From the IMG/VR virus record IMGVR_UViG_3300031576_000081, positions 1 to 47,743 of that record: a stretch of DNA of 47,743 nucleotides. One strand, written 5' to 3'. How positions within the stretch are numbered: the first letter of the stretch is position 1; every line of letters starts with the position of its first letter. Below, one piece after another: positions 4,390 to 36,238 of the stretch. The position numbers were made by a program, and so were the translations under genes. The notes under the pieces are model-generated. The model made no database searches. It saw nothing but the letters and a program-made list of their open reading frames with translations, and was not told the origin of the DNA. This DNA comes from a virus.

Positions 4390-4610
4390 TCGCTGAGCCT
4401 CCCGTGCGCGAGGACGGCCTCTGCGCTCACTGCGGCGGCCCGCGCAAGTTCCCCAAGCGACACCAGAAGGGGGTCGACCCGGCGTTGTACGAGCGCGACC
4501 CCTTCTGCGCGACATCGTGTGCGCGGGCGTGGCACGGCGTTCCACTCACCAATGTCCTCGGCGGCGATCCGAGCGAGCGACGCGGGCGCTATGAGCGGGT
4601 GGCGGCGTGA
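4386..4610 (+). CDS. Small zinc-binding protein
   Basis: 74 residues with two cysteine pairs: CAHCGG near the N-terminus and FCATSCARAWH near the middle, spaced to bind one zinc. The pattern resembles FCS/MYM-like or ribosomal zinc knuckles in small phage proteins. It overlaps neighbours by four bases on both sides and is thus made together with the peptidase-like protein and SbcD. Role unknown. Confidence 0.6.
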   Translation: MIAEPPVREDGLCAHCGGPRKFPKRHQKGVDPALYERDPFCATSCARAWHGVPLTNVLGGDPSERRGRYERVAA

Positions 4611-5746
4611 CCCGCATTCTGGTCTCGGGCGACTTCCAGATCGGCGCCGGCCAGACCTTGGGCCGCACGCTCGTCGACCAGGACGAGCTGCTCGCGCGCA
4701 TCGTCGACATTGCCGAGCGCGAGCAGACCGAGCTCTTTCTGTTCCTGGGCGACGCGTTCCAGAACCGCTCGACGAACCGCGACCAGGACGAGGTCTTCAT
4801 GCGCTTCCTCGTCGCGATGTCGCGCGTGTGCCCGATCCTGCTCCTGGGCGGAAACCACGACTGGCGCGGGTACGAACGCGCGTCGACTGTCGGCATCTTC
4901 CGCGAGATGGGCGTCCGGGTGGCGCTCGAGCCGGGCGTGCACCGCTTCGGCAAGGTCGCCGTTGCGACGCTGCCCTGGGCCGCTCTCGGTCACCTCGTCG
5001 CGGCGAGTGACGGCGGCGAGCGCGCTCGAACGAACGAGGAGGCGGCTGCTCACCTGGTGTCCATCGCGGGCGGATTGCGTTCTCAGATCGCGCAGGATGA
5101 GATCGCGATCCTGGCCGGGCACTGGGCGGTGACGGGGGCATCGCTACCGACCGGCCTGCCAGTCGAGATGCTGAAGGAGCCCGTGGTCGAGATCGCTGAC
5201 CTGCTCGCGCAGAAGTGGGACGCGGTGGTCTTGGGGCATATCCACAAACCTCAGGTGATGAGCCAGGACCCGCTGGCGCTCTACGTCGGGTCGCCTTGGG
5301 CGAACGACTGGTCGGAGGCGTCGAATCCTCATGGCGTTTGGATCATGGATTCCGCGATGAGTCCAGGCTCGGGCTGGGTCGCGATTCCCGATCACCCGTT
5401 CATCACCTTCGAGCCCGAGGTCGGGATGGATCTCGATGCGCTGGCCGAAGGTGCCGCCGCGGTGGAGGATGCGATCGTGCGCGTGCAGATCAGCGCGACG
5501 CCCGAGCAGGCGCGCAGGCTCGACCTGGCGGCGCTCAAGGAGGCGCTCTACGCCGCTGGCGCCCACTTCATCGCCCCGATCCAGCTTGAGATCGTGAAGC
5601 CGGAGCGCGCCCGTATCGAAGGCCTGAACGAGGATCTGGACGAGCTGGCGGCGCTCGAGCTGTGGCTCGATGCGGCGGGCGTCAACGGAGACCGGGCGGA
5701 TGCGCTGCGCGAGCGCACACAGAGCTATCTGGGGGCGGTGCGATGA
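4607..5746 (+). CDS. sbcD: SbcD/Mre11-type metallophosphoesterase nuclease subunit
   Basis: With SbcC this enzyme trims DNA ends and cuts hairpins. Metal-site motifs occur in order: SGDFQIG (residues 8-14), FLGDAFQNRS, LLGGNHDWRG, LAGHWAV and VLGHIHKPQ. Motif I reads D-F-Q where Mre11/SbcD normally has D-x-H, a departure in a metal ligand. The 379-residue length is normal for SbcD. It partners with SbcC at 7319, but two ParB-like genes stand between them. Confidence 0.85.
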   Translation: MTRILVSGDFQIGAGQTLGRTLVDQDELLARIVDIAEREQTELFLFLGDAFQNRSTNRDQDEVFMRFLVAMSRVCPILLLGGNHDWRGYERASTVGIFREMGVRVALEPGVHRFGKVAVATLPWAALGHLVAASDGGERARTNEEAAAHLVSIAGGLRSQIAQDEIAILAGHWAVTGASLPTGLPVEMLKEPVVEIADLLAQKWDAVVLGHIHKPQVMSQDPLALYVGSPWANDWSEASNPHGVWIMDSAMSPGSGWVAIPDHPFITFEPEVGMDLDALAEGAAAVEDAIVRVQISATPEQARRLDLAALKEALYAAGAHFIAPIQLEIVKPERARIEGLNEDLDELAALELWLDAAGVNGDRADALRERTQSYLGAVR

Positions 5747-6507: not shown

Positions 6508-7322
6508 GGAGCCCGATGACGACAGCAACAAAGCCGATCCCGTCTGCGTTCGATGCATTGTCGCGCTATGACGGGCGCAATGAAGAGACCGCGAAGCTGA
6601 GCCGGCTGCCTCTCGATGCGATCCTGATTCCCGATTTCCAGCGCGATAGGATCGCGCCCCACATCAAAAAACTGACTGCCGAGTACGACGCGACGGCATT
6701 CATCTTTCCCATCGTCGCGCTCTTCAAGGGGAACCTCATTGACCTCGATGGGCAGCAGCGCCTCGCGGCGGCCGAGGCGCTCGGCGAGCAGCGCGTCGTC
6801 TGCGTTCTGATCGAGGGCATCGCATCGCGCGAGCGGCTCGCCGATCTCTTTCTCAAGTTCAATCGCGACCGTCGTCTCCTGAACGCATTTCAGAAGTTCG
6901 TCGCGGCGCTTGATGCCAAAGATCGCGGCACTCTGTCGATTCACGCGATCCTTGAAAGGCATGGGAAGCATGTCGCGAAAAAGGCGTCGGCGAACGGCGG
7001 GATGCCTGCTGGCGCGGTGACGAGTGTCCACGCGAACGGCGGCAACGATCGTCTCGATCGCGTCGTGCGGACTATCAGGCAGGCCTGGCCGACGCCAAGT
7101 CAGGAAGCACACGAGGCTGAGACGATTCTCGGGCTCGCACTCTTCCTCAAACGGGACTGGGAGAAGATCGACGACAACCGTCTGATTTCCGTCCTTCGGA
7201 AGCACCACCCTGGTTATCTCCTTGAGGCAGCCGATCATCAGCGAGGAGCTTTGCGCGCCTCATACAGCGATTACATCCGCGATCTCTACAACAAAGGTCT
7301 GCGGGGGAAGGGTCGCCTGTGA
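6504..7322 (+). CDS. Second ParB-like domain protein
   Basis: ATG at 6504 overlaps the previous stop. The 272 residues contain a ParB-type core, with LPLDAILIPDFQR followed later by FKGNLIDLDGQQRLAAAEAL (about residues 76-95), where DGQQR occupies the place of the GERR box. The C-terminal half is helical and unrelated to ParB HTH. Similar stand-alone ParB-like proteins occur in many phages with no known job. It ends by overlapping sbcC, so both ParB-like genes are locked between the nuclease and ATPase subunits. Confidence 0.65.
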   Translation: MRSPMTTATKPIPSAFDALSRYDGRNEETAKLSRLPLDAILIPDFQRDRIAPHIKKLTAEYDATAFIFPIVALFKGNLIDLDGQQRLAAAEALGEQRVVCVLIEGIASRERLADLFLKFNRDRRLLNAFQKFVAALDAKDRGTLSIHAILERHGKHVAKKASANGGMPAGAVTSVHANGGNDRLDRVVRTIRQAWPTPSQEAHEAETILGLALFLKRDWEKIDDNRLISVLRKHHPGYLLEAADHQRGALRASYSDYIRDLYNKGLRGKGRL

Positions 7323-9514
7323 ACCCTCTGTCCCTGCGCGCCACCAACTACCGCACCTTCGAGGATCTCTACTTCGAGTTCCCCCCGGGTTGCCTCGCGA
7401 TCCTCGGAGCGAACGGAGCGGGCAAGTCCTCGATCGTCAACGTCATCGACCTGTGCCTGTTTGGACCCGAGGGACGCTCATTCGCCGACTACCTGACCGA
7501 CGACGGCGACTCCACCGAGCTCGAGCTCGAGCTGACCTTCGCGCACGCGGGCGAGACCTATCGCGTGCGCAGAGGCTTCTCCGCGCACGGGCGCGGGAAG
7601 ACAACGCTCGACTTCGAGCGGCGCGTCGGGGAGTCTGACGAGTATGAGCCGCGGAGTCGCGAGTCGCAGAAGGAGACGCAGGCGCTGATCTCCGGGACGC
7701 TCGGCCTCTCGCGCGCGACCTTCCGCGCGTCGGCCTTCCTCGCGCAGGGTGACAGCGCTGCCTTCACCGAAGCGACGCCGCGGGAGCGGCTGTGGATCCT
7801 CGCCGACGGGCTCGGGCTCGGTATCTGGGAGCGCCTGCGAGACGCCTGCCGGGTCGACAAGCGCACTGCCGAGCGCGAAGCCGCCGAGCTTGCCGGCCGG
7901 ATCGCGCTACTCGAGGAAACAGGCGGCGACGTGGAGGCGCTGGGAAGGGCGCGCGACGAGGTGCGTGCTGCGGGCGGCGCTGCTCTCGAAAGCCATGCCC
8001 GCGCCGAAGCGTCGCTGGCTCGAGCCGCCGAGCAGGTCTCAGCGCTCGACGAGGCAGGCGCGAGCTATCGCGCGGCGCACGCGCAGCTCGAGGCTGCGCA
8101 GGCGCGCCTGCGCGAGCGGCGCTCACTCGTCGAGCGTGCGGCGGCTGCGAAGCTCGAGGCGGTCTCCGTCCAGCAGCAGGCTGACGCAATGGGGGCGCCG
8201 GCGGAGAGGCTGGCCGAGCTCGATGAGATTCGCGTCGGACAGGAAGCCCTGCGCGAGCAGCGCCGTGAGCGCGAGGCCATGCGCGACAGCTACCTCGCAG
8301 ACGCCAAGGACGCTCAGCGACAGGCCGTGACGCTGGTCGACGAGCGCCAGGCCGTGTACGCCTCTCTCGTGACCTTGCAGCGCCAGGCCGCCGAGCTGAA
8401 CGAGGCCGGGCGCGAGCACATCTGCCCCACCTGCGAGCAGGTGCTCGCCGGCGCCGCTCACTCCACCGCGCTCGCCCGCATCCGTGAGCAGCTGGGCGAC
8501 GCGGAGCAGCGGGTGGATGCCTACGACGAGCGCATCGCAGCACTCAGGGAGCGCGAGAACGGGCGCAGGGCTGCCGCCGAGAAGATCGAGATCCCCGACG
8601 CGCCGAGCGACGAGAACGTCTCCGCGCTCACGCAGGAGATCACCCGCTGGCGCGCTACGGAGACGAGCCTGGCCGTCGCGAACCAGAAGCTCGCTGCGCT
8701 CGCGACCACGATCGCCGAGGTCACGCCCGAGCTGACCGCCGAGGTCGCCCGTCTCGCCGGCGAGCTCGTCTCCGCGCAGGACGCGCTAGCCGCTCTCGCC
8801 GAACCCGAACCGGGAGCGCTCGAGCAAGCGCAGGTGGCCGCTGTCGCCGCCAAGGCTCAGCTCGACAGCGTGTCGCAGCGGCTTACCGAATCGCGCGCCT
8901 CGCTCATTCGCGCGGACTCCGCGCTCGAGGGAGCGTACAAGATCGCCGAGGAGCTGACTTCGTGTCATGCGAGGCAGGAGCGACTCCTCGGCGAGCTCGA
9001 CCTGCTCGCCCTGCTCGAGCGCGCCTATGGGCGCGACGGCATTCCGGCGCTGATCGTCGAGTCCTCGGCGATCCCGCAGATCGAGACCGAGGCCTCGCGC
9101 ATCCTGAGCGCGCTCGGCACCAGCTATCGAGTCGAGCTACGAACGCAGCGCGCGCTCAAGTCGGGCGACGGGCTCGCGGACACGCTCGACGTGGTGGTGC
9201 TCGGCGAGGCGGGCGAGCGGGCGTACGAGAGCTTCTCGGGAGGGGAGAAGTCCCGCCTGAACGTCGCCCTCAGGATTGCCCTGGCACGCCTGCTCGCGCG
9301 CCGGCGCGGAGCGGAAAGCCGGATCCTCGTCCTGGACGAGATCGAGTACCTCGACGCACCGGGGCAGATGGCGCTCGCGAACGTGCTGAAGGAGCTCGCG
9401 CTTTCCGACTTCGACAAGGTCGTCTGCGTCTCGCACGCAGACACTCTCCGGGACGTGTTCGACAACGCGATCACGGTGGAGAAGGACGGCAACCGCTCGA
9501 GGATCGCAGCGTGA
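7319..9514 (+). CDS. sbcC: SbcC/Rad50-type SMC-like ATPase
   Basis: This is the ATPase partner of SbcD. Walker A GANGAGKS lies at residues 30-37; long alanine- and arginine-rich coiled coils flank a zinc hook (ICPTCEQVL, about residue 370); the ABC signature SFSGGEKSR is near 638 and Walker B ILVLDEIEYLD near 669, followed by CVSHAD. At 731 residues it is shorter than bacterial SbcC (about 1050) because both coils are short, as in other phage forms. GTG start overlaps the upstream stop. Confidence 0.9.
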   Translation: MNPLSLRATNYRTFEDLYFEFPPGCLAILGANGAGKSSIVNVIDLCLFGPEGRSFADYLTDDGDSTELELELTFAHAGETYRVRRGFSAHGRGKTTLDFERRVGESDEYEPRSRESQKETQALISGTLGLSRATFRASAFLAQGDSAAFTEATPRERLWILADGLGLGIWERLRDACRVDKRTAEREAAELAGRIALLEETGGDVEALGRARDEVRAAGGAALESHARAEASLARAAEQVSALDEAGASYRAAHAQLEAAQARLRERRSLVERAAAAKLEAVSVQQQADAMGAPAERLAELDEIRVGQEALREQRREREAMRDSYLADAKDAQRQAVTLVDERQAVYASLVTLQRQAAELNEAGREHICPTCEQVLAGAAHSTALARIREQLGDAEQRVDAYDERIAALRERENGRRAAAEKIEIPDAPSDENVSALTQEITRWRATETSLAVANQKLAALATTIAEVTPELTAEVARLAGELVSAQDALAALAEPEPGALEQAQVAAVAAKAQLDSVSQRLTESRASLIRADSALEGAYKIAEELTSCHARQERLLGELDLLALLERAYGRDGIPALIVESSAIPQIETEASRILSALGTSYRVELRTQRALKSGDGLADTLDVVVLGEAGERAYESFSGGEKSRLNVALRIALARLLARRRGAESRILVLDEIEYLDAPGQMALANVLKELALSDFDKVVCVSHADTLRDVFDNAITVEKDGNRSRIAA

Positions 9515-10816: not shown

Positions 10817-11296
10817 GTGAGCGCGTCGAACCCCACGAGGGGAGCGTCCTCAATTGAGGTCGTCGTGAGTGAGCTAGAGAAGATCGCGCGAGTGATGCGC
10901 ATGGTGCAGGACGACTGTGAAGCGGAGGCCATGTCCATCGACGGCAAGCCCTTCACGGCTGGGGTGGTCGCTGAGCAGTTCGGGAACTTCTGGCCGAAGT
11001 CAAGGCCGTTGCTCGTGCTGTGGAACTGCTCGCCGCAGCTTCTAACCAAGAGCGAGGGCCGGACGCATGAGCGGGCCGCTGCCGGAGAACGAGACACGAC
11101 GCGCGCCATCCTCGGTCTTGCTGGGGCGATGAGTGCTGCCGCCGATCAGGCGCGGGCCATGACGGATGCCGAACTCGGCGAACTGCTCCTCACGGGTCGC
11201 TGGACGACGATCGAGATTCACGAAGCTGGTCGCAGGCTTACTCGTGCAGCACAAAGCCAAGAAACGAGTCACTCAAGCAGCGAGGCGAGTTCATGA
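10817..11296 (+). CDS. Hypothetical protein spanning a junction repeat
   Basis: The GTG at 10817 has GAGAGGGA upstream, giving 159 residues; a GTG at 10865 in the same frame (VSELEKIARVMRMVQDDCEA) is an alternative. Residues about 75-90 are coded by the second 27-base junction repeat, read in a frame different from the SNQERGPDA tail seen elsewhere, so the gene may be a fusion of two shorter genes or carry a frameshift. The 3' end overlaps the convergent integrase by 28 bases. Confidence 0.5.
   Translation: MSASNPTRGASSIEVVVSELEKIARVMRMVQDDCEAEAMSIDGKPFTAGVVAEQFGNFWPKSRPLLVLWNCSPQLLTKSEGRTHERAAAGERDTTRAILGLAGAMSAAADQARAMTDAELGELLLTGRWTTIEIHEAGRRLTRAAQSQETSHSSSEASS
10823..10851 (+). repeat. 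Direct repeat flanking the integrase, copy 1
   Basis: Matches 12202-12229 across 28 bases with a single inserted A. Contains GAGGGGAGCGTCCTC. It is followed by a 12-base palindrome CCTCAATTGAGG (10848-10859). Confidence 0.75.
11044..11070 (+). repeat. 27-base gene-junction repeat, copy 2
   Basis: Exact copy of 10000-10026. The ATG at its end would give only a 21-codon ORF, whereas the longer reading frame runs straight through it. Confidence 0.85.
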
Positions 11297-12252
11297 TCGG
11301 TGATCTCCCGCAGCGGCTTCGCATGGGAGTAGACGTCGAGCGACATGGACGCCTTCGCGTGCCCGAGCCTGCGCGCGAGCTCGACCGCGACGACGCCCTG
11401 TTGATGCCAGAGCGACCCGCGCCGGTGGCGCAGGAGGTGCGGGTGGATCATGCTCGCGTCGCGGAACTTGCGCCACACGGTGACTCGCGAGGTTCGGAAC
11501 GGCACGCGTTCGGCAAGAGCCTCGGCCACGAGCGGCAAGCACGGGACGAGGCGACTCGTGCGCTGCCCCTTCACGGCCTCCCTGCGAAAGCGTACGGCTT
11601 CGTCCTGGATATCATCGCGGCGCAGGCTCAGAGTCTCGGACACGCGGCTCCCGAGCTGCTCCATCGCGAGCGCGGGGTAGCGCACGTCGTCAGTGAGCGC
11701 GCGGAAGAGCGCGATCACGTCCGGCGCGTCGGGCGGATCGAGCTCATCTCTGACGACGCGTGGAAGCTCGACTCGGCGAGAGCGCGCGACGTTCGCACCG
11801 TCGGCGAGGTCGAGGATCATCCGAAGCTGCCCGACGTAGCCCACGACCGTCGCCGGGGAGAGCTCCTCGACGAGGTCGCCGACCCAGGCCACGACGTCCC
11901 CGACGGCAAGCTCATCGACCACGGTCGTTCCGAGATCCTCAGCGATGCGCTTCTGCCGCGATCGGTATCCGCTCCGAGTCGAGTCGGATATGCGGCGCTT
12001 CCCCGCGAGCCACTCGTCCTGCAGCTCGCCCACGCTCAGCGCGGGGGAGACCACGCGGCGGAGCTCCACCCTCGGGTTCAGACCGGCCGCGAGCCACTCG
12101 GAGATCACGGCCTTGCGAGTGTTCGCATCCTTCATCGTGCGGAAGGTTCCGCCGTGCTCGAGATGCGTGTAGCGCCCGCCGCGGCGGTACTTCACATCGA
12201 AGCGTCGAACCCCCGAGGGGAGCGTCCTCGCTCGCACGTACAGCGTCGCCAA
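11269..12252 (-). CDS. int: Tyrosine-family integrase
   Basis: The 327-residue enzyme joins phage and host att sites. Catalytic residues are complete: Arg in QLGSRVSETLSLRRDD, Lys in EAVKGQRTS, HLLRH, GHAKASM and the Tyr nucleophile in LDVYSH. An arm-binding N-terminus (MATLYVRARTLPSGVRRFDV) and a SAM-like core-binding domain (WLAGKRRISDSTRSGYRSRQ) precede them. The start is TTG at 12252, with a weak ribosome site, suggesting low expression. It points against the early operon, overlaps the 3' end of the neighbour and shares its upstream region with the 12459 gene. Confidence 0.95.
   Translation of the reverse strand: MATLYVRARTLPSGVRRFDVKYRRGGRYTHLEHGGTFRTMKDANTRKAVISEWLAAGLNPRVELRRVVSPALSVGELQDEWLAGKRRISDSTRSGYRSRQKRIAEDLGTTVVDELAVGDVVAWVGDLVEELSPATVVGYVGQLRMILDLADGANVARSRRVELPRVVRDELDPPDAPDVIALFRALTDDVRYPALAMEQLGSRVSETLSLRRDDIQDEAVRFRREAVKGQRTSRLVPCLPLVAEALAERVPFRTSRVTVWRKFRDASMIHPHLLRHRRGSLWHQQGVVAVELARRLGHAKASMSLDVYSHAKPLREITDHELASLLE
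12202..12229 (+). repeat. Direct repeat flanking the integrase, copy 2
   Basis: Lies inside the 5' end of the integrase gene, coding RTLPSGVRRF on the minus strand. Its partner is at 10823-10851. Confidence 0.75.
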
Positions 12253-12458: not shown

Positions 12459-12551
12459 ATGACCGCGCTCCTCGTCGAGCTCGCGCAGGCGAAGGACGGT
12501 CGGCGACTCCGCTACTTCGACGCTGGCGGGATCGTGAGGGCTGAGGCGTGA
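12459..12551 (+). CDS. 30-residue early peptide
   Basis: ATG at 12459 follows CAGGAG (12446-12451) and the repeats upstream of the integrase; the stop overlaps the next GTG. The sequence MTALLVELAQAKDGRRLRYF has no recognised motif. It may act mainly as a leader coupling translation of the next gene. Confidence 0.45.
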   Translation: MTALLVELAQAKDGRRLRYFDAGGIVRAEA

Positions 12552-13318
12552 CGACGGAACGCTCCGTGTCTTCGAGGCTTCACTCGCGAGAGGAAGAACT
12601 CGCTGCGCTGATCGCTGAGCAGGAGAGAGACGCCCGATATGGCGATCGCGTTCTTACCGAGCGAAGGCTCTCTCTCGACTACGCATTTGACGATGGGTTG
12701 AGCTTCTCCGAGATCATCGGTGGGCCGGACAGCAGTCTTGTCGCGCTTACAGACGAGCCTGATTCGATCGTGCGTCGTATCCCGCGACCGCAGAAGTGGA
12801 CGTGCCGACAGATCATCAGCGCCATCCAGAAGTGGGCTAAGGAGCACGGGGAGCCACCGCTCTACAAAGAATGGAAGCGGCCGAACGGACGTGGTATCCC
12901 GTCCACCGCATCCGTGGCCCGAGCCTTCGGTTCGTGGAACGCAGCGATAGAGGCCGCTGGTTTTTCGCCTCGTCCTGTAGGAGGCACGAGCCATCAGGAA
13001 CACCTACAAGGCAAGCGCCTCGTTCGGCGCATTCGCAGGCGTAAGCGCACGGCTTATCTCACACCCGAGAAGATCGCGGCGGCATACGTGCTGTACGACA
13101 GGCAGGGACTCTCGATGCCCAAGCTCGTCGAACTGCTCTGGAAGTCGTATGGCTATCGCTCGCGTAAGTCGTGCTACACGGCTCTGCTCCGAGCGTTCCA
13201 TGCCGAAGGCTTCCGCATGCGAGACAAGCGCGAAGCTGCAGCGCTCGTTGATTGGAGCGTTCGACACGAGCGTGCTCGCAAGGGCGGACTCACTGCGTCA
13301 GAACGGAGGGCCGCATAG
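12548..13318 (+). CDS. HNH-associated-repeat DNA-binding protein
   Basis: 256 residues. Residues about 85-137 match the homing-endonuclease-associated repeat: WTCRQIISAIQKWAKEHGEP, PLYKEW, then ARAFGSWNAAIEAAGF. No HNH nuclease motif is present, so this is probably a DNA-binding protein built from the repeat plus a basic linker (RLVRRIRRRKRT) and a C-terminal region with an HTH-like stretch (LSMPKLVELLWKSYGYRSRK). A second protein with this repeat is at 14934. Confidence 0.6.
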   Translation: MTTERSVSSRLHSREEELAALIAEQERDARYGDRVLTERRLSLDYAFDDGLSFSEIIGGPDSSLVALTDEPDSIVRRIPRPQKWTCRQIISAIQKWAKEHGEPPLYKEWKRPNGRGIPSTASVARAFGSWNAAIEAAGFSPRPVGGTSHQEHLQGKRLVRRIRRRKRTAYLTPEKIAAAYVLYDRQGLSMPKLVELLWKSYGYRSRKSCYTALLRAFHAEGFRMRDKREAAALVDWSVRHERARKGGLTASERRAA

Positions 13319-14644: not shown

Positions 14645-14937
14645 GCCGCGCCATGCCCGAGACTCTTGAGCAGGAGCTAGAGCGTCTCGTCACCGACGCC
14701 GACTATCGCGTAATCGTGGTGCACGCGAGCGACAGCTACCTCAACATGCGGATCGTCTACCTGCCGCACCTGAGCGTGCGCGGCGAGGGTCCATTTTTCT
14801 ACATTGCCCACGGGCTGATCGCCGAGCAACACTTCATGCAGCGCAACCCGTCGAAGCGGTGGCGGAAGGCCCGCGAATGGGCACAGCGCGAGATCAGCGG
14901 GCACCGAGGGTTCGTCCAGGGCGTCAACGTCGCGTGA
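14641..14937 (+). CDS. Hypothetical early protein
   Basis: 98 residues, ATG overlapping the previous stop. An alternating beta pattern (YRVIVVHASDSYLNMRIVYL) is followed by a basic helical C-terminus (SKRWRKAREWAQREI). No domain recognised. Confidence 0.55.
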   Translation: MSRAMPETLEQELERLVTDADYRVIVVHASDSYLNMRIVYLPHLSVRGEGPFFYIAHGLIAEQHFMQRNPSKRWRKAREWAQREISGHRGFVQGVNVA

Positions 14938-15539
14938 CCATCGCCACCCGCCCCACCCGCGCCGAGCTATATGCGCTGTACGCGCCGCTGCGCAACGAGG
15001 GCTACACGGTCGCCGAGATCGCCGCGCGCTACGGCAAGGCGCGCTCCTCTGTGCACGCGATCCTTGACGATCCCGACGGCTCCAAGCAGCGCGCGCGCAG
15101 ACGCCGCTACCAGGGCACCTGCGCCACCTGCGGCGCCCGCACGGACGGCTCCAACGGCTCGGCCAAAGCGCCGCGCTACTGCGCTACCTGCTTCCCGCTC
15201 TCACCCGAGTTCGCGGCCCAGAAAGCTGCGCAGACGTACTGGACGCGCGAGCTTCTGATCGAGCGTATTCAGGAGTGGGCCGAGTTGTACGGCGAGCCGC
15301 CGGCGATTCCCGACTGGAGTCCGAGCCAAGCGCGGTGCAACCATGACGAGCCGCGCGCTCGCCGCTTCGAGGACGCCCGTCCGCACTGGCCGTGGTTCAC
15401 GTCGGTCGTTCGCGTCTTCGGCTCCTGGCGCGCCGGGCTTGAGGCGGCCGGCTTCGAGGCGCGCGCACCACACGGCGGCGGGGGCAACGTGCTGCGACGG
15501 CGCTCGCAGCGGGCGCGTGCGCTCGAGGAGGTGGCGTAG
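14934..15539 (+). CDS. HTH, zinc-ribbon and HNH-associated-repeat protein
   Basis: 201 residues in three parts: an N-terminal HTH (GYTVAEIAARYGKARSSVHA), a zinc ribbon (CATCGAR and CATCFP, about residues 63-85) and an HNH-associated repeat (LLIERIQEWAELYGEPPAIP then VVRVFGSWRAGLEAAGFEAR). No HNH catalytic motif. Likely a sequence-specific DNA-binding protein, related in its repeat to the 12548 product. Confidence 0.6.
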   Translation: MTIATRPTRAELYALYAPLRNEGYTVAEIAARYGKARSSVHAILDDPDGSKQRARRRRYQGTCATCGARTDGSNGSAKAPRYCATCFPLSPEFAAQKAAQTYWTRELLIERIQEWAELYGEPPAIPDWSPSQARCNHDEPRARRFEDARPHWPWFTSVVRVFGSWRAGLEAAGFEARAPHGGGGNVLRRRSQRARALEEVA

Positions 15540-15814
15540 TGGCGACGAGTCAGGCCACGGGCTCGGAAGGTGCGGCGCAGGGTTCTAACCACGGGCACGT
15601 CGAGCTGACGCTGCGTGCGCTAAGGCTGGAGCGCGGGCTCTCTATCCGTGACGTGGAGAATCTGAGCGGGATCAGCCGCGCCTGCCTGAGCATGATCGAG
15701 CGCGGGCGCGAGCTACCGACACCAGAGCAGCTCGCCACGCTCGCGGACGTGTACGGAGTCGTGGGACGCTGGCGCTTCGTGACCCTAGTGCTGCTGGAAG
15801 AGAGGCAGGCGTGA
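15539..15814 (+). CDS. XRE-family regulator
   Basis: 91 residues; GTG shares its first base with the previous TAG. The HTH reads LRALRLERGLSIRDVENLSG, then ISRACLSMIERGRELPTPEQ. It is the third XRE protein in the phage and lies in the middle of the early operon, so it could time a later set of early genes. Confidence 0.8.
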   Translation: MATSQATGSEGAAQGSNHGHVELTLRALRLERGLSIRDVENLSGISRACLSMIERGRELPTPEQLATLADVYGVVGRWRFVTLVLLEERQA

Positions 15815-15966
15815 CGAGGTACGCGGCGACCACGGCTGTGCCCGTCGAGCGCTCGCGCGGCGAGATCGTGGGCGAATGGGTTACGCCACAGCTCGTCGAG
15901 GTGTATGCGAACGGTGTCATGCCGGGGACGCTCAGGCTCGCTCTCCCTGAGAAGGCGAACGCATGA
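15811..15966 (+). CDS. 51-residue early protein
   Basis: GTG 15811 overlaps the regulator stop and its TGA overlaps the next ATG. Predicted beta-rich (VGEWVTPQLVEVYANGVMPG). Unknown. Confidence 0.5.
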   Translation: MTRYAATTAVPVERSRGEIVGEWVTPQLVEVYANGVMPGTLRLALPEKANA

Positions 15967-16289
15967 GCGATCCAATCGGGCACCTGACGCCAGGGGAACT
16001 CAAGGCATGGCAGACGTTCGTCGAATACTTCCGTCGCGAGCAGCTCGTCGGTATCTCGAAGTCGGCCGTCTTTATGTCACTGGTTCCCGACGAGGAGGGC
16101 GATGTCCAGTTCTGGGCGCAGCTCGGCTGCGCAATCATGCTCGACAAGCCGATCATCGCCGTGGCGATTCGCGGTCGCGATGTCCCGCCGAAGCTTAGGC
16201 TCGTCGCTGACGAGATCGTCCGCGCTGACATCGACACGGACAGCGGCAAGCAGGCGATCCTTGAGGCGCTGGAAAGAGTTGGCGCGTGA
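15963..16289 (+). CDS. Small Rossmann-like protein, possibly TIR/SLOG or deoxyribosyltransferase-like
   Basis: 108 residues. The order SAVFMSLVPDEEGDVQFWAQ, LGCAIMLDKPIIAVAIRGRD, then LVADEIVRADIDTD is the pattern of proteins that sort nucleotides or NAD-like ligands: a strand, a helix with a carboxylate, then LDKPIIAV. Resemblance is at fold level only. Confidence 0.45.
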   Translation: MSDPIGHLTPGELKAWQTFVEYFRREQLVGISKSAVFMSLVPDEEGDVQFWAQLGCAIMLDKPIIAVAIRGRDVPPKLRLVADEIVRADIDTDSGKQAILEALERVGA

Positions 16290-16609
16290 GCGGTCCCAGC
16301 CAGGGCGCCCTTCCCAGCCTCGAACGTGAGGTGGCCCTGAGCGAGCGCCAAGCCCTCGCGCTCACGATCATCCGCACGCGCGGTCCGATCTCGTCCGGCG
16401 AGCTCGGGGCGCTCGTGCGCGAGGCGCGCGGCGGCAGGATCACAGGAGCAGAGTTCGATCAGTCGAACGGACGGAAGCTCGGCGATGCGCTGGCGCGCGA
16501 AGGGCTCGTGCGCTACTGGCGCGGCTCGGGCTGGGTGGACGGAGAAGTGCTAACACATGAGCTGCTAGCAGATAGCTATGACCCGGCGACGGCGGAGATC
16601 CCGTTCTAG
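16286..16609 (+). CDS. Winged-helix-like early protein
   Basis: 107 residues from GTG 16286. SERQALALTIIRTRGPISSG and LGDALAREGLVRYWRGSGWV look like a winged helix. The stop TAG abuts the start of the nuclease gene. Confidence 0.5.
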   Translation: MSGPSQGALPSLEREVALSERQALALTIIRTRGPISSGELGALVREARGGRITGAEFDQSNGRKLGDALAREGLVRYWRGSGWVDGEVLTHELLADSYDPATAEIPF

Positions 16610-16956
16610 TGCTCGAGCGTGAGCTTCAAGACGGCGTCGCGCAGGTCGCGCGCCTACTCGGCTACCGCGTCTTCCACGCGCGCCCGGCCTGGACGCAGAA
16701 GGGCTATCGAACGCCCGTCTCCTACGACGGCAAGGGCTATCCGGATTTGACGCTGGCCGGCAACGGGCGAGTCATCTTCGTCGAGCTCAAGTGCGGCAGG
16801 AACGTCCTCTCCGCCGAGCAGGCGGCCTGGCTCGAGGCGCTGCGCGCAGCCGGCCAGGAGGCGTACGTGTGGAGCGAGCGCGAGTGGGCGGAGGGGATCG
16901 TGGAGGCCGTGCTCAGGCGCGGAACGCGGCATGAGATCGAACCAAACGCGGCCTGA
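16609..16956 (+). CDS. VRR-NUC nuclease
   Basis: 115 residues, the length of stand-alone phage VRR-NUC proteins. The PD-(D/E)XK active site is intact: GKGYPDLTLAGNGRVIFVEL with PD, then E-L-K (VELKCGRN) and the following LSAEQAAWLEAL helix. Such enzymes cut branched or single-stranded DNA and may resolve recombination or replication intermediates. Confidence 0.85.
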   Translation: MLERELQDGVAQVARLLGYRVFHARPAWTQKGYRTPVSYDGKGYPDLTLAGNGRVIFVELKCGRNVLSAEQAAWLEALRAAGQEAYVWSEREWAEGIVEAVLRRGTRHEIEPNAA

Positions 16957-16978
16957 CGGCCGCAGGAAGGAGCCCATC

Positions 16979-17380
16979 GTGGCTACAGCGACAGAGGAGA
17001 TCGTTTACTCCGAGCAAAAGGAGTGGGAGGTCCTGCAGGACGACGCAAACCTGCCTTCGGACCCCGATGGCAAGGCCTTGTTCGATCGCGACGCCTACCA
17101 GGCGCCGGAGCTTCGCATCGACCAGGTCGACGGCCAGGAGGTCGACAAAATCTGGCTCAAGTTCTCCGGCCGTGTGGCACTCGATCGCACGCAGGCCGCG
17201 GACGTCGCGCTCTTCAATCGCGTCCGTCTCGGTCACGAGCTCGAGCTGCGCGTCGCGGGCAAGGGCTCCCGTGTCGGCACCGGCTACACGACCTCCAAAG
17301 GCGGAGACCTGGAAGCGATCGTCGGCGAGCGTGAGCTGCGCATCGACAGCGTGTACGTGTTCTCGGCCGAGGAGCTATAG
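16979..17380 (+). CDS. Early protein upstream of the replication initiator
   Basis: 133 residues from GTG 16979 with AAGGAG at 16967. Acidic, beta-rich, with a paired hydrophobic and charged pattern (LKFSGRVALDRTQAADVALF). It could be a DNA-binding accessory such as an ssDNA-binding protein, but no OB-fold signature is certain. A small GCGGCC/GGCCGC hairpin (16948-16963) precedes it. Confidence 0.55.
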   Translation: MATATEEIVYSEQKEWEVLQDDANLPSDPDGKALFDRDAYQAPELRIDQVDGQEVDKIWLKFSGRVALDRTQAADVALFNRVRLGHELELRVAGKGSRVGTGYTTSKGGDLEAIVGERELRIDSVYVFSAEEL

Positions 17381-17384
17381 CGGG

Positions 17385-18092
17385 GTGGCCTGGCGAGCGA
17401 TCCAGGACACGGTCGGACGCTCGGAGTCGCTGGCCGAGCTCTCGCATATCGCCGAGCGGATCTACTGGCGGCTGCTCGCGCACTCCGATCCCTGGGGCAG
17501 GGTCGACGCGCGACCCCGGAAGCTCCGCGCTCTGTGCTGGCCGATGCTGCCCGAGATCAGCGACGAGGAGGTCGGCTACGCGCTCCTCGAGATCGAGACG
17601 GTCGGTCGCATCGTCGTCTTCGAGAGGCGCGGTGACCACGTTGTGCAGCTAGTCGACTTCGAGGCAAATCAGCCTCGCGATGCCATCCGCCGGCGGCCCG
17701 AGAAGAGCCGATTCGCCGATCCGCCGGACAGTGTCCGCCCAACTGCCGGACTTGTAACAGCGCTGTTCGGCCTCGGCGAGCAAACCAGCCTATTAGCAGG
17801 GGATTCCGGACAGCGTCCGGCGCACAAGCGGACAGTGTCCGGCAAGGCGGCGGACACTGTCCGCGGAGAAGAGACGGAGAGAGAGACGGAGAAGGAGAAG
17901 AGAGAAAAGCTTACAACCCTTCGAGCGAGCGAGCGTGAACTACAGGACGCGCATCGCTCGCCGGCTTCAGAACACGCTGAGGAGGACGATCCAGAGCCAG
18001 ACCTCGGTGGACTCGAAGCGCCGATGACTCAGGCGGTGGCTCGGGAGCTTGCGCGCGCGCGCAACCCTGCCCCGGAAGGAGCGACGACATGA
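17385..18092 (+). CDS. Replication initiator with embedded origin (lambda O-like position)
   Basis: 235 residues from GTG 17385. The N-terminal 95 residues (LSHIAERIYWRLLAHSDPWG, LPEISDEEVGYALLEIETVG) form the winged-helix seen in phage replisome organisers. The middle (about 114-160) is a linker whose DNA carries four palindromic iterons, followed by a charged tract (ETERETEKEKREK) coded by a purine-rich run. This matches the plan of the lambda O gene. The following gene would be the helicase-loading partner. Confidence 0.65.
   Translation: MAWRAIQDTVGRSESLAELSHIAERIYWRLLAHSDPWGRVDARPRKLRALCWPMLPEISDEEVGYALLEIETVGRIVVFERRGDHVVQLVDFEANQPRDAIRRRPEKSRFADPPDSVRPTAGLVTALFGLGEQTSLLAGDSGQRPAHKRTVSGKAADTVRGEETERETEKEKREKLTTLRASERELQDAHRSPASEHAEEDDPEPDLGGLEAPMTQAVARELARARNPAPEGATT
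17725..17863. other. Candidate replication origin: four palindromic iterons
   Basis: CGGACAGTGTCCG at 17725-17737 and 17829-17841, CGGACAGCGTCCG at 17807-17819 and CGGACACTGTCCG at 17851-17863. The last three start exactly 22 bases apart. A half site CCGGAC lies at 17746. A nearly pure purine tract (17866-17909) ending in AAAAGCTTACAA follows and could be the unwinding element. In lambda, four iterons followed by an A/T-rich segment sit inside gene O. Confidence 0.7.
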
Positions 18093-18718
18093 GCGAGGTC
18101 TACCTGTGGACGGAGATCCGGCTGCGCGCGGTCGAGCTCTTCCGCGACGCTCCTTCGGCGACGCAGGAGCAGCGCGTCCTCGACGTCTTCCGCGAGCACC
18201 CCGCGCTCGTCGTCGAGGCGGTCGAGCACGTAGGGCGGCGCTTCCAGACGGGGCAGGTGCGAAACCCGTGGGCGGTCCTCGCCAAGCACGTCGAGCAGGC
18301 GATGCGCCCACTCGACGACGTCAGCGCAACCGACGAGCGCGACCGCGAGCGGGCGGTCTCTCGAGCCGAGCAGTGGCTGCGCGCAGCTGGTCAGCACTTC
18401 GACCGCGAGGAGGAGATTCTCGAGGAGCTCTTCGGCGAGCTGGGACGTCTGCGGACGTGGAGAGACGACGAGCCGCTCAAGGTGCGCATGCTCGCGCTCT
18501 TCGGCGAAGTCCGCGCCAGGGGCGACACGATCGTGCAGGAGGCTTCAGAGCGGGCAGAGCACTGGCGGTCGACGACCGGTCTGCGCTACCGGCTCGAGCG
18601 CGACCCCGAGTTCCGGCGCAGTTACCTCGCCGAGCACCCGGAGGCCGTCTCGGACGAGCCTCGACTCGACGGCGATCCCGAGCCCGTGCTCGACGACCCG
18701 GAGCCGGTGGTCGCATGA
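18089..18718 (+). CDS. Replication accessory protein, possible helicase loader
   Basis: 209 residues, ATG overlapping the initiator stop. Two segments: a helical N-terminus with RVLDVFREHPALVVEAVEHV and VRNPWAVLAKHVEQAM, similar in feel to the C-terminal helices of primosomal proteins, and an acidic C-terminal tail (DGDPEPVLDDPEPVVA) that could bind single-strand protein or helicase. No Walker motif. Role as partner of the initiator rests on position. Confidence 0.5.
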   Translation: MSEVYLWTEIRLRAVELFRDAPSATQEQRVLDVFREHPALVVEAVEHVGRRFQTGQVRNPWAVLAKHVEQAMRPLDDVSATDERDRERAVSRAEQWLRAAGQHFDREEEILEELFGELGRLRTWRDDEPLKVRMLALFGEVRARGDTIVQEASERAEHWRSTTGLRYRLERDPEFRRSYLAEHPEAVSDEPRLDGDPEPVLDDPEPVVA

Positions 18719-18740
18719 CCCCTCGAAGCCAGGAGGCCCC

Positions 18741-19673
18741 ATGAGCGTCGCCCTCTTCACGAACGTGCTCGCGAACCTGCCAGCCGAGCGCGTGCGCTCA
18801 CTCGACGCGAGCCTCGCCGCTGAAGGCCTGGGCGGGATCGAGGCCGTGTACGTGAGCGTGTGGCCGGAGCCGACCGAGGAGCTCGAACACCGACGAGCGA
18901 ACCGAGCTGCGTTCGGGCAGTGGCGAGCCGCCACTGGCGTCCCGACCTGGGCCTGGATCGTGTGCTCGAAGGACCAGGCCGCCGACGCGACTAAGATCGT
19001 CGAGCTGCACGAGCAGCTCAGACCCAGCGGCTGGAAGCTCAACATCGAGGCGCCGCTGAATCACGCCAAGCTCGGGGTGCTCCTGAAAGGCGCACTCGCT
19101 ACCACCGTCCCACTCTCGGCCTCCCTGGCGGGGCAGACGGCGTCGCACATGAACTACGACTACCGCGCCCTCGAGCGAGCCGGCGTCGAGATCGACTGGC
19201 AGGCGTACTTCGACTCGGGCGAAGGGCAGCCGCCGGCGCTGAGCGTAGCCGAGCTGTACCAGTCGAGCTTCGTGATCCCCGGCTGGGAGTACCGCCACCG
19301 GCTGGACGTCTACTACGGCTGGGGCAAGGTTGGCATGGTCTCGGGCGGAGAAGCCTGGCTCGACTCGTACCGCCGGCCGGGGACTTCGGACGGCCGCTTC
19401 ACGGTCGCTCCGCGCGAGTGGGGGTGGTGGGTCGTTGATCATGCCCTGCGCCGGAACGGCCAGGTCGGCACGCTCATGGGCCGGGCCGCCTACGCGAGGA
19501 TCCGGATCACGCTCGACGTCACCCGGACCGCGCAGGCCCGCCCGCCCGCGCACTGGACACCGATCGCAGCTTCCGCGCGGGTCGCAGGCGCGAGCAAGCG
19601 GCCGCTCTCAGTCTACCTCGCCGAGAACACCTCGGACGAGGTCATCGTGGCGATAGCGCGCGGGGCGGCGTGA
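18741..19673 (+). CDS. Unknown protein, possible TIM-barrel-like
   Basis: 310 residues behind CCAGGAGGCCCC. Repeating strand-helix units (GIEAVYVSVWPEP, VPTWAWIVCS, GWKLNIEAPLNH, TTVPLSASLAG, VEIDWQAYFD) look like a barrel, and acidic residues at strand ends (NIEAP) could be catalytic as in glycosidases. This is inference from pattern; no family is recognised. It is followed with overlap by a methyltransferase gene. Confidence 0.45.
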   Translation: MSVALFTNVLANLPAERVRSLDASLAAEGLGGIEAVYVSVWPEPTEELEHRRANRAAFGQWRAATGVPTWAWIVCSKDQAADATKIVELHEQLRPSGWKLNIEAPLNHAKLGVLLKGALATTVPLSASLAGQTASHMNYDYRALERAGVEIDWQAYFDSGEGQPPALSVAELYQSSFVIPGWEYRHRLDVYYGWGKVGMVSGGEAWLDSYRRPGTSDGRFTVAPREWGWWVVDHALRRNGQVGTLMGRAAYARIRITLDVTRTAQARPPAHWTPIAASARVAGASKRPLSVYLAENTSDEVIVAIARGAA

Positions 19674-32525: not shown

Positions 32526-33065
32526 ATGAAGTCAGGAACCGCTGTGGCGTGCCCGGTGACATTTCACGCAGAGCAGGAGCAGGTTCGAGAGAGCGTGATT
32601 CGTTTCATCGAAGTCGACGTGATGAGCGTGCATGCAGCGCGGACGCTCGTCCCATTCTCCGCAGTCCTGGCAAACGCGGTCACGCGAGATCACCGCCAGC
32701 CTGATGCTCTGGCGCCATCCGGCGAAGCGCGCCGGGGCCACGCCACCCTTCCACTTGTGGTTCAGCGCACCGGTCATCGCCGGGCGCCTACGACCACGCT
32801 TGGCGGCAGCCATCTTCGCCTTCGTCTCGTCAGAGAGCTTCCGGCCCTTGCCCTGGCCCATCTTCGCGGCACTCATGCGAGCGCGAGTCTCGTCGCTGAA
32901 CATGCGCCCTTTCAGCGCGGCGCTGAGGCGCGCCCGATGCTCGGCAGTCTTCGGTCGCCCCTTCAGCGCGGCGCTCAGCTTCGCCCGATATCCGGGATCG
33001 TCATGGAAGGCGGGACGCGGTCGCACGTGGCTACCTATTCTATTGACTGCGGCGGCCCGTCATGA
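32526..33065 (+). other. Antisense reading frame across the HNH insertion
   Basis: AAGGAG at 32511 and ATG at 32526 open a 179-codon frame that runs antisense to the whole HNH gene and stops at TGA 33063-33065, overlapping the glycosyltransferase ATG (33062). The protein itself looks non-native. The frame may serve only to couple translation to the downstream gene, which lacks a ribosome site of its own. Confidence 0.4.
32532..33026 (-). mobile_element. Free-standing HNH homing endonuclease with NUMOD3 repeats
   Basis: 164 residues on the minus strand, inside the rightward late operon. Three NUMOD3 units (KGRPKTAEHRARLSAALKG, GRMFSDETRARMSAAK, GRKLSDETKAKMAAAKRG) bind DNA; the C-terminal HNH domain carries CQDCGEWDERPRC, HAHHVDFDE, NHALSNLLLLC and CHRARH with zinc cysteines intact. 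The GTG start at 33026 has little ribosome site. It appears to have entered between the ribosome site at 32511 and the glycosyltransferase start. Confidence 0.85.
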
Positions 33066-36000
33066 ACAAGATCGCGCTCTGCATGATCGTGAAGAACAGC
33101 GCGGAAACGATAGAGCGCTGTCTGGAGTCGTTTCGGCCGTTCGTCGACGGTGTGTTCATCTACGACACCGGCTCTACCGACGCCACGATCCTCGTCCTTG
33201 AGCGGCTCGACAACCTCAAGACGCGACGGATCGACGCCACGACAGGCGCGTGGGAGGACTGCGTCTGCCAGACGGAGACGCCCGAGGGCTTCCTCGACGT
33301 CCCGCTTGCGCCGATCAAGATCGAGCGCGGCGAGTGGCGCGACGACTTCGCGTGGGCACGCGAGCAGTCGTTCGCGATGGTTCCTGACGACGAGGGCTGG
33401 GACTGGTGGGCCTGGGCCGACGACGACGATGTGCTGGAGGGTGGAGCAGTTCTTCGCCAGTTCACATTCACAGCGCCCCCTGAACTAGATGGCGCAATCG
33501 TCCTCTACGACTACGCTCGCGACGAGCACGGCCAGTGCGTGTGCCAGCTCTGGCGCGAGCGCTTGCTCCGCCGCTCGGCTGGCTACCGCTGGCTGAACCC
33601 GGTTCACGAGGTGCTCGTGCCGCCGGATCGGCCTGCCATTCTCGCGAACATCCCGCCCGAGCAGGTGCGCTACATCCACCACCGCCCGCCTGACCGTTAC
33701 GACTCCGAACGTAATCTCAAGATCCTCGCCCGCCAGCGCACCGAGGCGCTCGAGGAAGGAACGCTTCCAGGGCCGCGCGTCCTCGCCTACCTGGGAACCG
33801 AATACATGGCGAAGGGACAACTCGCTGAGGCGATCCCCTACCTCGACGAGTACCTCCGCCATCCCGACGCGGGCTGGTCGGACGAGCGCTCGCAGGTCTA
33901 CCACAAGCTCGCAACCTGTCTGCAGGCAATCGGCAATCCGCAGGCGGCAGTCGAAGCCGAGATGCTTGCGCTACGCGAGCGCGACGACTGGGCCGAGACC
34001 TACATCGGGCTCGCGCAGGCTTTCGCGACGCTCGGCAAATGGGATCGAGCGGTGCGCGACGCTCAACGCGCGCTGCAGCTCGGCGTTCCGCAGACGCCCC
34101 TGATCGTCAACCCGCTCGAGTTCACGCTCCTGCCACTTCTCGTGATCGCCGAGGGCTGCACTCACCTGGGGCGCTCGGAGGAAGCCCAGCAGGCACTCGC
34201 CCGAGCGCTCGAGATCGCGCCCGAGAACGCGTACGCGCGCGCCAAGGCGGAGCAGCTTCAGACTCTCGTTGCTCAGAACGAGATCGTGGGCGCGGTCATG
34301 CTCCTACGCGAGACACTCGTCCGCCACGACGAGAACCTGAAGGCGTACGCGCTCATGGAGCAGACGGTTCCCTATGTCGTCAACGAGCGCCCCGAGATCA
34401 TCAAGGCTCGCTCCGATCAGCGCGAGATGGTCGCGCACTACCTGCGCCCGGAGGAATACGAGCGCTGGTATCGCGAGGAGCCGAAGGAGTCAACCGTCCC
34501 GGACGAGATCGTGCCGGAAGTCGGCGAGCACATCCCGCGCGCGAAGCGCTTGCTCGAGGGCCTGCGCGAGCAGGAGGCGAAGCTCGGGCGAAAGCCGCGC
34601 ATCGTCGATCTCGGCTCGAACGACATGTGGCTCGCCTGTTACCTGTGGCTCGAAGGCGGGTACACGGTCGACGGGGTCGAGCTCAACCGTCAATCCGTCG
34701 AGAAGGGCCTGAAGCGGATGGAGCACTTCGGCGCGCCGGGGAAGCTCCTGCACGGCAACCTCTTCGAGGCAGGGTCGCTCGTCAACGGCTCGCGCTACGA
34801 CGCCGTCTCCCTGTTCGAGGTGATCGAGCACGTACCAGACGTCGAGCAGGCTCTCGACCTCTGCGAGAGCCTGCTCGCTTCCGGCGGTGTCGTGTACGTC
34901 TCAACGCCGAACGGGGCCTACGAGCGTGGCGCAATCGCAGCTTGGGCGCGCGTCGAGCGCAAAGGGCACCTGCGCGCGATTCCCGTTCATGAGCTGGCCG
35001 AGACATTCGCGCGGCGTGGGGAGATCGAGCATCTCGAGCTGCAACACGAGGAGCGCGTCACCTTCGCCTCGTACAGGCCGGGCAAGCGCAAGGGCAGGAT
35101 CAGCTTCTACGCCGGTGCCGGCTGGGAGCCGTGGTCGCCACGCTCGATCAACGAGGGTGGCCTCGGCGGATCGGAGACGGCGCTCGTGCAGGTGGCGACG
35201 CGTCTCGCCGGAGAGGGCTATGAGGTCACGGTCTATTCGGGTGCCGAGCCAGGGTACTACGCGGGAGCGCTCTATCGCCCCTTCACGGCCTGGGATCCGA
35301 CTGACGCTCCGGACCTCCTCGTTGTCTCGCGTCTCTGCCACGTCTTCGACAACCCGATCGGTGCCAAGGCTTCTGCTCTGTGGTGTCACGATCACTCGTA
35401 TCCCGGCCAGCTGACCGAGGAGCGCGCGGCCAAGATCGGGACGATCGTGACCCTCTCCAAGTGGCAGCGTGACCGCTTCTCGCGCCTGTACCCGTTCGCC
35501 GCCTCCAAGCTCGCGATCATCCGTAACGGGATCACCCTCAAGGGGCCGGACGGCGAGATCCGCTTCCCCGACGCGGGGCGCGGCTTCGACGAGCGCTCAG
35601 CGAGAGTCGTCTACTCGTCATCGGCCGACCGCGGGCTCGACACGCTGCTCGAGCTTTGGCCTCGGATTCGCGAGCAGGTGCCTGAAGCCGAACTGCACGT
35701 CTACTACGGCTGGCAGGTGTTCGACCGGGTCGCCGTGATGAATCCTGCTCTGCACGCGTACAAGGCGCGGGTCATGCAACTCGCAGAGCTGGCGGGTGGC
35801 GAGGGCGGCGGTGTCTTCATGCGCGGCCGCGTCGGCCAGCGCGAGCTCGCAGCGGAGATGCAGGACGCGCGAGTGTGGGCCTACCCGACCGCGTTCCTCG
35901 AGACATCGTGCATCGGGGCGATGGAGGCGCGTGCGGCCGGTCTCGCAATCGTCACGAGCGATCTCGGCGCGTTGCACGAGACAGTCGGCTCCCACGGTGC

Positions 36001-36238
36001 CCTGATCTCCTGGGAGGCGAACGAGGACGAGAGTTACAACCAGAGCGAGCCCTACCGCGATGCGTTCGTCGCAGATGTCTCGGGGGCGCTACGCGACGAG
36101 CGTGCCTGGACGGAGCTTCATCGAGCGGCACGGCGGGGTGTCCCTTCGCTCGACTGGTCTTCGCGGACAGCGAGATGGGAAGCTCTCCTCAATGTGAAGC
36201 CCCACGCCCGGAGACGACGGCAGAAGATAGCCGCCTGA
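33062..36238 (+). CDS. GT2 / TPR / methyltransferase / GT4 fusion enzyme
   Basis: 1058 residues. Residues 1-215: family-2 glycosyltransferase (IALCMIVKNSAETIERCLES, IYDTGSTDAT, WADDDD metal site). About 230-420: TPR-type helical repeats. About 515-640: class I methyltransferase (IVDLGSNDMWLACYL, VDGVELN, LFEVIEHVPDV, YVSTPNG). About 685-1050: GT4-type glycosyltransferase (NEGGLGGSETALVQVATRLA, then VVYSSSADRGLDTLLELWPR, YPTAFLETSCIGAMEARAAG). It would build and methylate a short glycan. No close ribosome site; it may depend on coupling from 32526. Confidence 0.85.
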   Translation: MNKIALCMIVKNSAETIERCLESFRPFVDGVFIYDTGSTDATILVLERLDNLKTRRIDATTGAWEDCVCQTETPEGFLDVPLAPIKIERGEWRDDFAWAREQSFAMVPDDEGWDWWAWADDDDVLEGGAVLRQFTFTAPPELDGAIVLYDYARDEHGQCVCQLWRERLLRRSAGYRWLNPVHEVLVPPDRPAILANIPPEQVRYIHHRPPDRYDSERNLKILARQRTEALEEGTLPGPRVLAYLGTEYMAKGQLAEAIPYLDEYLRHPDAGWSDERSQVYHKLATCLQAIGNPQAAVEAEMLALRERDDWAETYIGLAQAFATLGKWDRAVRDAQRALQLGVPQTPLIVNPLEFTLLPLLVIAEGCTHLGRSEEAQQALARALEIAPENAYARAKAEQLQTLVAQNEIVGAVMLLRETLVRHDENLKAYALMEQTVPYVVNERPEIIKARSDQREMVAHYLRPEEYERWYREEPKESTVPDEIVPEVGEHIPRAKRLLEGLREQEAKLGRKPRIVDLGSNDMWLACYLWLEGGYTVDGVELNRQSVEKGLKRMEHFGAPGKLLHGNLFEAGSLVNGSRYDAVSLFEVIEHVPDVEQALDLCESLLASGGVVYVSTPNGAYERGAIAAWARVERKGHLRAIPVHELAETFARRGEIEHLELQHEERVTFASYRPGKRKGRISFYAGAGWEPWSPRSINEGGLGGSETALVQVATRLAGEGYEVTVYSGAEPGYYAGALYRPFTAWDPTDAPDLLVVSRLCHVFDNPIGAKASALWCHDHSYPGQLTEERAAKIGTIVTLSKWQRDRFSRLYPFAASKLAIIRNGITLKGPDGEIRFPDAGRGFDERSARVVYSSSADRGLDTLLELWPRIREQVPEAELHVYYGWQVFDRVAVMNPALHAYKARVMQLAELAGGEGGGVFMRGRVGQRELAAEMQDARVWAYPTAFLETSCIGAMEARAAGLAIVTSDLGALHETVGSHGALISWEANEDESYNQSEPYRDAFVADVSGALRDERAWTELHRAARRGVPSLDWSSRTARWEALLNVKPHARRRRQKIAA

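Follow-up and report, generated by a model that had tools for sequence, protein, structure and literature searches.

The segment at positions 17725-17909 of the window, that is, of the whole 47,743-nt stretch of viral DNA analyzed here, is best read as the theta-type replication origin of this phage, embedded within its own initiator gene. This reading, to which we assign a probability of roughly 0.8, is favored by analogy with lambda, SPP1 G38P and 80alpha ORF20. Origins of the kind exemplified by lambda O, SPP1 gene 38 and 80alpha ORF20 are already known, and the present member is new.

The putative origin contains four 13-bp palindromic iterons, none of which is assigned to a strand. Iterons 1 (17725-17737) and 3 (17829-17841) both read CGGACAGTGTCCG, iteron 4 (17851-17863; CGGACACTGTCCG) is their reverse complement, and iteron 2 (17807-17819; CGGACAGCGTCCG) has kept the outer arms while its inner pair is broken. 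Their start-to-start distances are 82, 22 and 22 bp, the distance of 22 bp between the last three corresponding to two helical turns. The first-pass annotation had described four such palindromes with the last three 22 bp apart, and the sequence confirms this arrangement as the sole one of its type in 47.7 kb, given that a search for the 13-bp palindrome with 0 or 1 mismatch returned no further match in the window. Base pairing between iterons 3 and 4 could also yield a single long hairpin. A lone half-site, CGGAC, located on the plus strand at 17748-17752, 23 bp after iteron 1, and assigned to the 28-nt direct repeat family D1, may represent a decayed iteron. The array starts at residue 114 of the gene spanning 17385-18092, i.e., in the linker that follows the predicted DNA-binding domain.

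Directly after iteron 4 lies a purine-rich tract (17865-17909, plus strand), which encodes EETERETEKEKREK and is proposed to act as the DNA-unwinding element. With 43 purines out of 45 positions, it corresponds to the purine-rich run that had been noticed downstream of the iterons, and consists of low-stability DNA. The tract contains a 22-nt purine run at 17888, longer than any other in the window, and no 40-mer of the window is richer in purines than that at 17865 (38/40). Its G+C content is approximately 51% versus 67% for the window. According to nearest-neighbour energies, the 80 bp from 17866 constitute the second least stable place of the window, and, over lengths of 30 to 80 bp, no more than 0.05% of the positions in the window have a lower stability than 17865-17945. 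From its composition and calculated stability, the tract appears to be the easily melted segment adjoining the iterons. GC skew, put forward earlier as a check of the proposed origin, displays no clear turn at the site.

The gene that harbors the array (17385-18092, plus strand) begins with a GTG codon, with AGGAG about 10 nt upstream, and encodes a protein of 235 residues composed of an N-terminal predicted winged-helix domain, the iteron-bearing linker and a short acidic C-terminus. The predicted DNA-binding domain (residues 1-100; 17385-17684, plus strand) is proposed on the basis of the alignment and of a helix/strand order typical of winged helices. It matches phrog_1408 (E 5e-7), phrog_16167 (E 8e-6) and phrog_5810 (E 2e-5), and these three families as well as phrog_12556, which is also matched by the product, are each annotated as replication initiation. 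By tblastn, its identity to the initiators of Paenibacillus phage Mock2, Pseudomonas phage F10 and Moorella phage MCACPph1 is 27-31%, and an alignment with phage initiators gives 25-31%. The claim that the gene is initiator-like is thus borne out by the phrog_1408 match and by the 31% identity shared with DnaD-domain proteins of Paenibacillus phages, and, on this alignment evidence, the gene is a remote member of the phage replication-initiator families.

Other searches with the product were less informative. A Pfam search returned nothing useful, with no match above the cut-offs, a PDB sequence search returned no match, and phrog_5968 and phrog_4880 (Rep_Org_N type) were not matched, although the window shares its palindrome core with them. 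An AlphaFold model of the N-terminal domain alone, which follows the order H-E-H-H-E-E, is of low confidence (pLDDT 54), and no PDB fold match of this domain was significant, several of these matches being winged-helix regulators. Protein searches with the initiator, or with the L155 and L158 queries, found no close relatives of the phage, and the initiator alignment is too divergent for a pattern search of relatives.

The start of the next gene (18089-18715, plus strand) overlaps the stop of the initiator gene (ATGA). Its 209-aa product matches no known family and, as a guess from its position, could be a helicase-recruiting partner. Local searches gave no support to its being a split-off C-terminus of the initiator. 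No helicase or helicase loader was recognized among the window gene products searched. Elsewhere in the window, the phage is probably temperate since a tyrosine recombinase gene (11269-12252, minus strand) matches the phrog_1 integrase (E 4e-33). The genes at 4607-5743 and 7319-9511 (plus strand) code for SbcD-like and SbcC-like subunits of a palindrome-specific nuclease, the proposed origin being itself palindromic. Near the early region, 12548-13315 and 14859-15536 (plus strand) code for proteins with a homing-endonuclease-associated repeat (PF18780), and between the capsid and tail genes, 33062-36235 (plus strand) codes for a 1058-aa product that combines two glycosyltransferase portions with a methyltransferase-like one.

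In the mechanism that we propose, each palindrome would be bound by the N-terminal winged-helix domain of the initiator, probably in dimeric form. With the last three iterons 22 bp apart, the dimers would sit on the same side of the helix, leading to a compact nucleoprotein complex that would strain open the adjoining purine-rich, low-stability tract. A partner protein, for which the product of 18089-18715 is a possible candidate, would then load the helicase at the opened tract.

The core of the palindrome is found far beyond the window. Scanning IMG/VR for pairs of GGACANTGTCC palindromes lying 5-35 bp apart yielded 30 viral loci. According to PHROGs, the pair lies within a replication-initiator, replisome-organizer or DnaD-like loader gene in 15 of them (L005, L008, L010, L012-L017, L023-L025, L028, which is weak, L029 and L030). 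These amount to 14 of the 27 distinct loci, L014 and L030 being near-identical (binomial p 6e-8 against a generous background of 10%). The initiators that bear the pair belong to phrog_5968/4880, 10469, 2509, 9474 and 2562, and the palindrome copies in the initiator loci from this search are 2, 3 or 4 helical turns apart. The iteron had been presented as a new type, a view that is not supported given that numerous other phages carry its core, GGACA-N-TGTCC, within their initiator genes. A search for the motif in related phages had been suggested: the core occurs in many other phage initiators, and the five nearest named-phage relatives lack GGACA palindromes.

In GTDB genomes, 108 stretches display the GGACANTGTCC pair pattern, mostly outside initiators. 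Six initiators contain the pair (L090, L109, L128, L130, L133 and L141, with L109 counted as an initiator by near-identity to L024), and originate from bins or genomes of Clostridiaceae, Anaerococcus, Fusobacteriaceae, Singulisphaera, Pseudomonadota and Oligoflexia. Pairs at a fixed spacing, apparently outside initiator genes, occur in Kribbella (28 bp; L044, L047, L108 and L111) and Streptomyces (25 bp; L050, L072, L074, L107 and L112), and look like operators of bacterial regulators. Among the three palindromes scanned, GGACANTGTCC gave the most matches. The comparison scans returned 17 loci with GAGCANTGCTC pairs, including 8 in initiator or primosomal genes (one weak), and 11 loci with GGTCANTGACC pairs, including 1 initiator. 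Because pairs of both palindromes are also found in such genes, the plan of palindromes within an initiator gene is general. In the viral contigs L214 and L223, a phrog_1408 initiator gene contains five GAGCANTGCTC palindromes at an exact spacing of 33 bp.

Initiators were also sampled blind to the motif, through phrog_1408 and phrog_5968 from three phyla, together with five phage relatives. Repeated palindromes were significant in 13 of these 55 initiators versus 2 of 75 neighbouring control genes (Fisher p 0.0004), using an automatic test that overlooks some cases such as half-site arrays. Most of these palindromes differ in sequence from those of the window. Locus L155 contains CGTGANNNNTCACG four times, as 14-bp palindromes at spacings of 22, 66 and 44 bp, and further palindromes are TGTTCNGAACA in L153, TGCACNNNGTGCA in L161, and GGACANNTGTCC in L167 and L168. 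Five of the six clearest Rep_Org_N members sampled (L166-L169, L173 and L207) carry GGACA-TGTCC palindromes in the gene; L207 has only a half-site cluster. Across 16 public phage records with a Rep_Org_N domain, the core of the window is present in TP-J34, Javan263 and Javan567, and is one mismatch off in a Brochothrix phage. Other records carry TGTACAAATGTAC, GTCACGTGAC, GTAACGTTAC or TGACAATGTCA, and several of the linkers with other palindromes continue into GAGATA-like purine repeats. Judging from these genes, GGACA-N-TGTCC seems to be the standard iteron in a subset of the Rep_Org_N family.

Two regularities emerge from the initiator genes. Copy spacings of up to 70 bp are clustered at multiples of approximately 11 bp (57 values, R 0.83, window excluded), with a p-value that is indicative only, because the set includes related loci (L090 and L169 being one and the same gene) and was in part pre-chosen by a spacing of 16-46 bp. 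In 12 of 35 palindrome-bearing initiators, window included, the densest purine tract starts 9-31 bp downstream of where the last palindrome begins; such a tract is therefore common but not universal, as the remaining initiators are devoid of this placement.

Could the repeat be a mere coding or chance feature, in which palindromes arise accidentally from the repetitiveness of a linker peptide or from GC-rich codon usage? Protein linkers are weakly constrained and rich in repeats, yet the four iterons fall in three reading frames and encode differing peptides (PDSVR, SGQRP, RTVSG and ADTVR). Given this spread over three frames, the repeated unit is the DNA rather than the peptide, and a spacing of 22 is no multiple of 3. 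Moreover, the repeated-palindrome score of 40 was reached by none of 60 dinucleotide shuffles and by none of 1000 protein-preserving synonymous-codon permutations, the best of which scored 37. The latter test largely refutes a coding or chance origin of the iterons, and a like arrangement was found again in other initiators, so that we regard this explanation as extremely improbable.

Explanations that retain the palindromes as binding sites but assign them another role are also disfavored. Their use as operators, through which a repressor (the Cro/CI-like protein encoded at 15539-15811) or a self-regulating initiator would control this gene or the next, is unlikely. Palindromes of 11-13 bp would fit a dimeric regulator, and the many bacterial GGACANTGTCC pairs lying at a fixed spacing outside initiators, such as those of Streptomyces and Kribbella, imply that the core can serve regulators. 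However, all iterons are located mid-gene, none being near the repressor gene or in an intergenic promoter region, and no sigma-70-like promoter was detected in 15400-18800 by a scan that would miss other promoter types. Half of the viral GGACANTGTCC pairs, furthermore, lie within initiator genes. We consider it very unlikely that the sites form a partition centromere or another protein-loading array instead of an origin. The winged-helix centromere binders TubR and AspA do appear among the weak, non-significant fold matches, but no ParA- or TubZ-like gene was found among the gene products searched, and the location of the site inside an initiator gene, beside a low-stability tract, is that of known in-gene origins.

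Tentatively, GGACA-N-TGTCC could be an iteron common to phage initiators of several protein families and bacterial phyla, in which case iteron and initiator types would evolve partly separately and phage origins would be mappable from sequence alone. The common core may be ancestral, may have been exchanged between phages, or may have arisen more than once independently. A single palindrome core across initiator families was not found in the literature searched, in which subscription journals are thinly covered, and queries with the motif strings returned no paper on phages or origins. Because the GGACANTGTCC core recurs in unrelated initiators, the co-evolution of initiators and origins becomes directly testable. 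Most environmental phage origins are unmapped, and our results suggest a recipe pointing to an origin without experiment, namely palindromes spaced by whole helical turns in the linker of an initiator, often by a purine tract.

Compared with ori-lambda, the window follows the same plan, with four palindromic iterons in the initiator gene and then an easily melted region (a putative one in the window), and the N-terminal DNA-binding domain of lambda O has its predicted counterpart in the window product. The proposal of a lambda-style origin stands for this plan only. The lambda iteron is a 19-bp imperfect inverted repeat (PMC7466680), whereas the iteron of the window is 13 bp long and of different sequence; the melting region is AT-rich in lambda, its putative counterpart being purine-rich, with 51% G+C, in the window, where no lambda P-like loader was recognized among the gene products searched. 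The PHROG O-like family is absent from the matches of the window protein, which, by its sequence, would not belong to the lambda O family proper. In lambda, O binds the iterons and origin unwinding requires negative supercoiling (PMC7466680).

The proposed origin shares with SPP1 G38P/oriL and 80alpha ORF20 its embedding in the initiator gene. In SPP1, G38P binds oriL inside gene 38. For the staphylococcal phage 80alpha, loss of ORF20 is not complementable in trans (PMC5499656). Initiators of the phrog_1408 type (F10, the Mock2 DnaD-domain protein and the actinobacterial locus L155) belong to the same N-terminal domain family as the window product but have other iterons, such as CGTGANNNNTCACG in L155, F10 and Mock2 being devoid of GGACA palindromes. 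Rep_Org_N organizers (phrog_5968/4880) are longer proteins with an N-terminal domain of another family. Among them, orf10 of Streptococcus phage TP-J34 resembles the window in bearing GGACA-TGTCC palindromes in its linker, 24 bp apart, followed by a purine-rich stretch: copies of GGACATTTGTCC precede GAGATA repeats that the depositors annotated as 7 direct 6-bp repeats.
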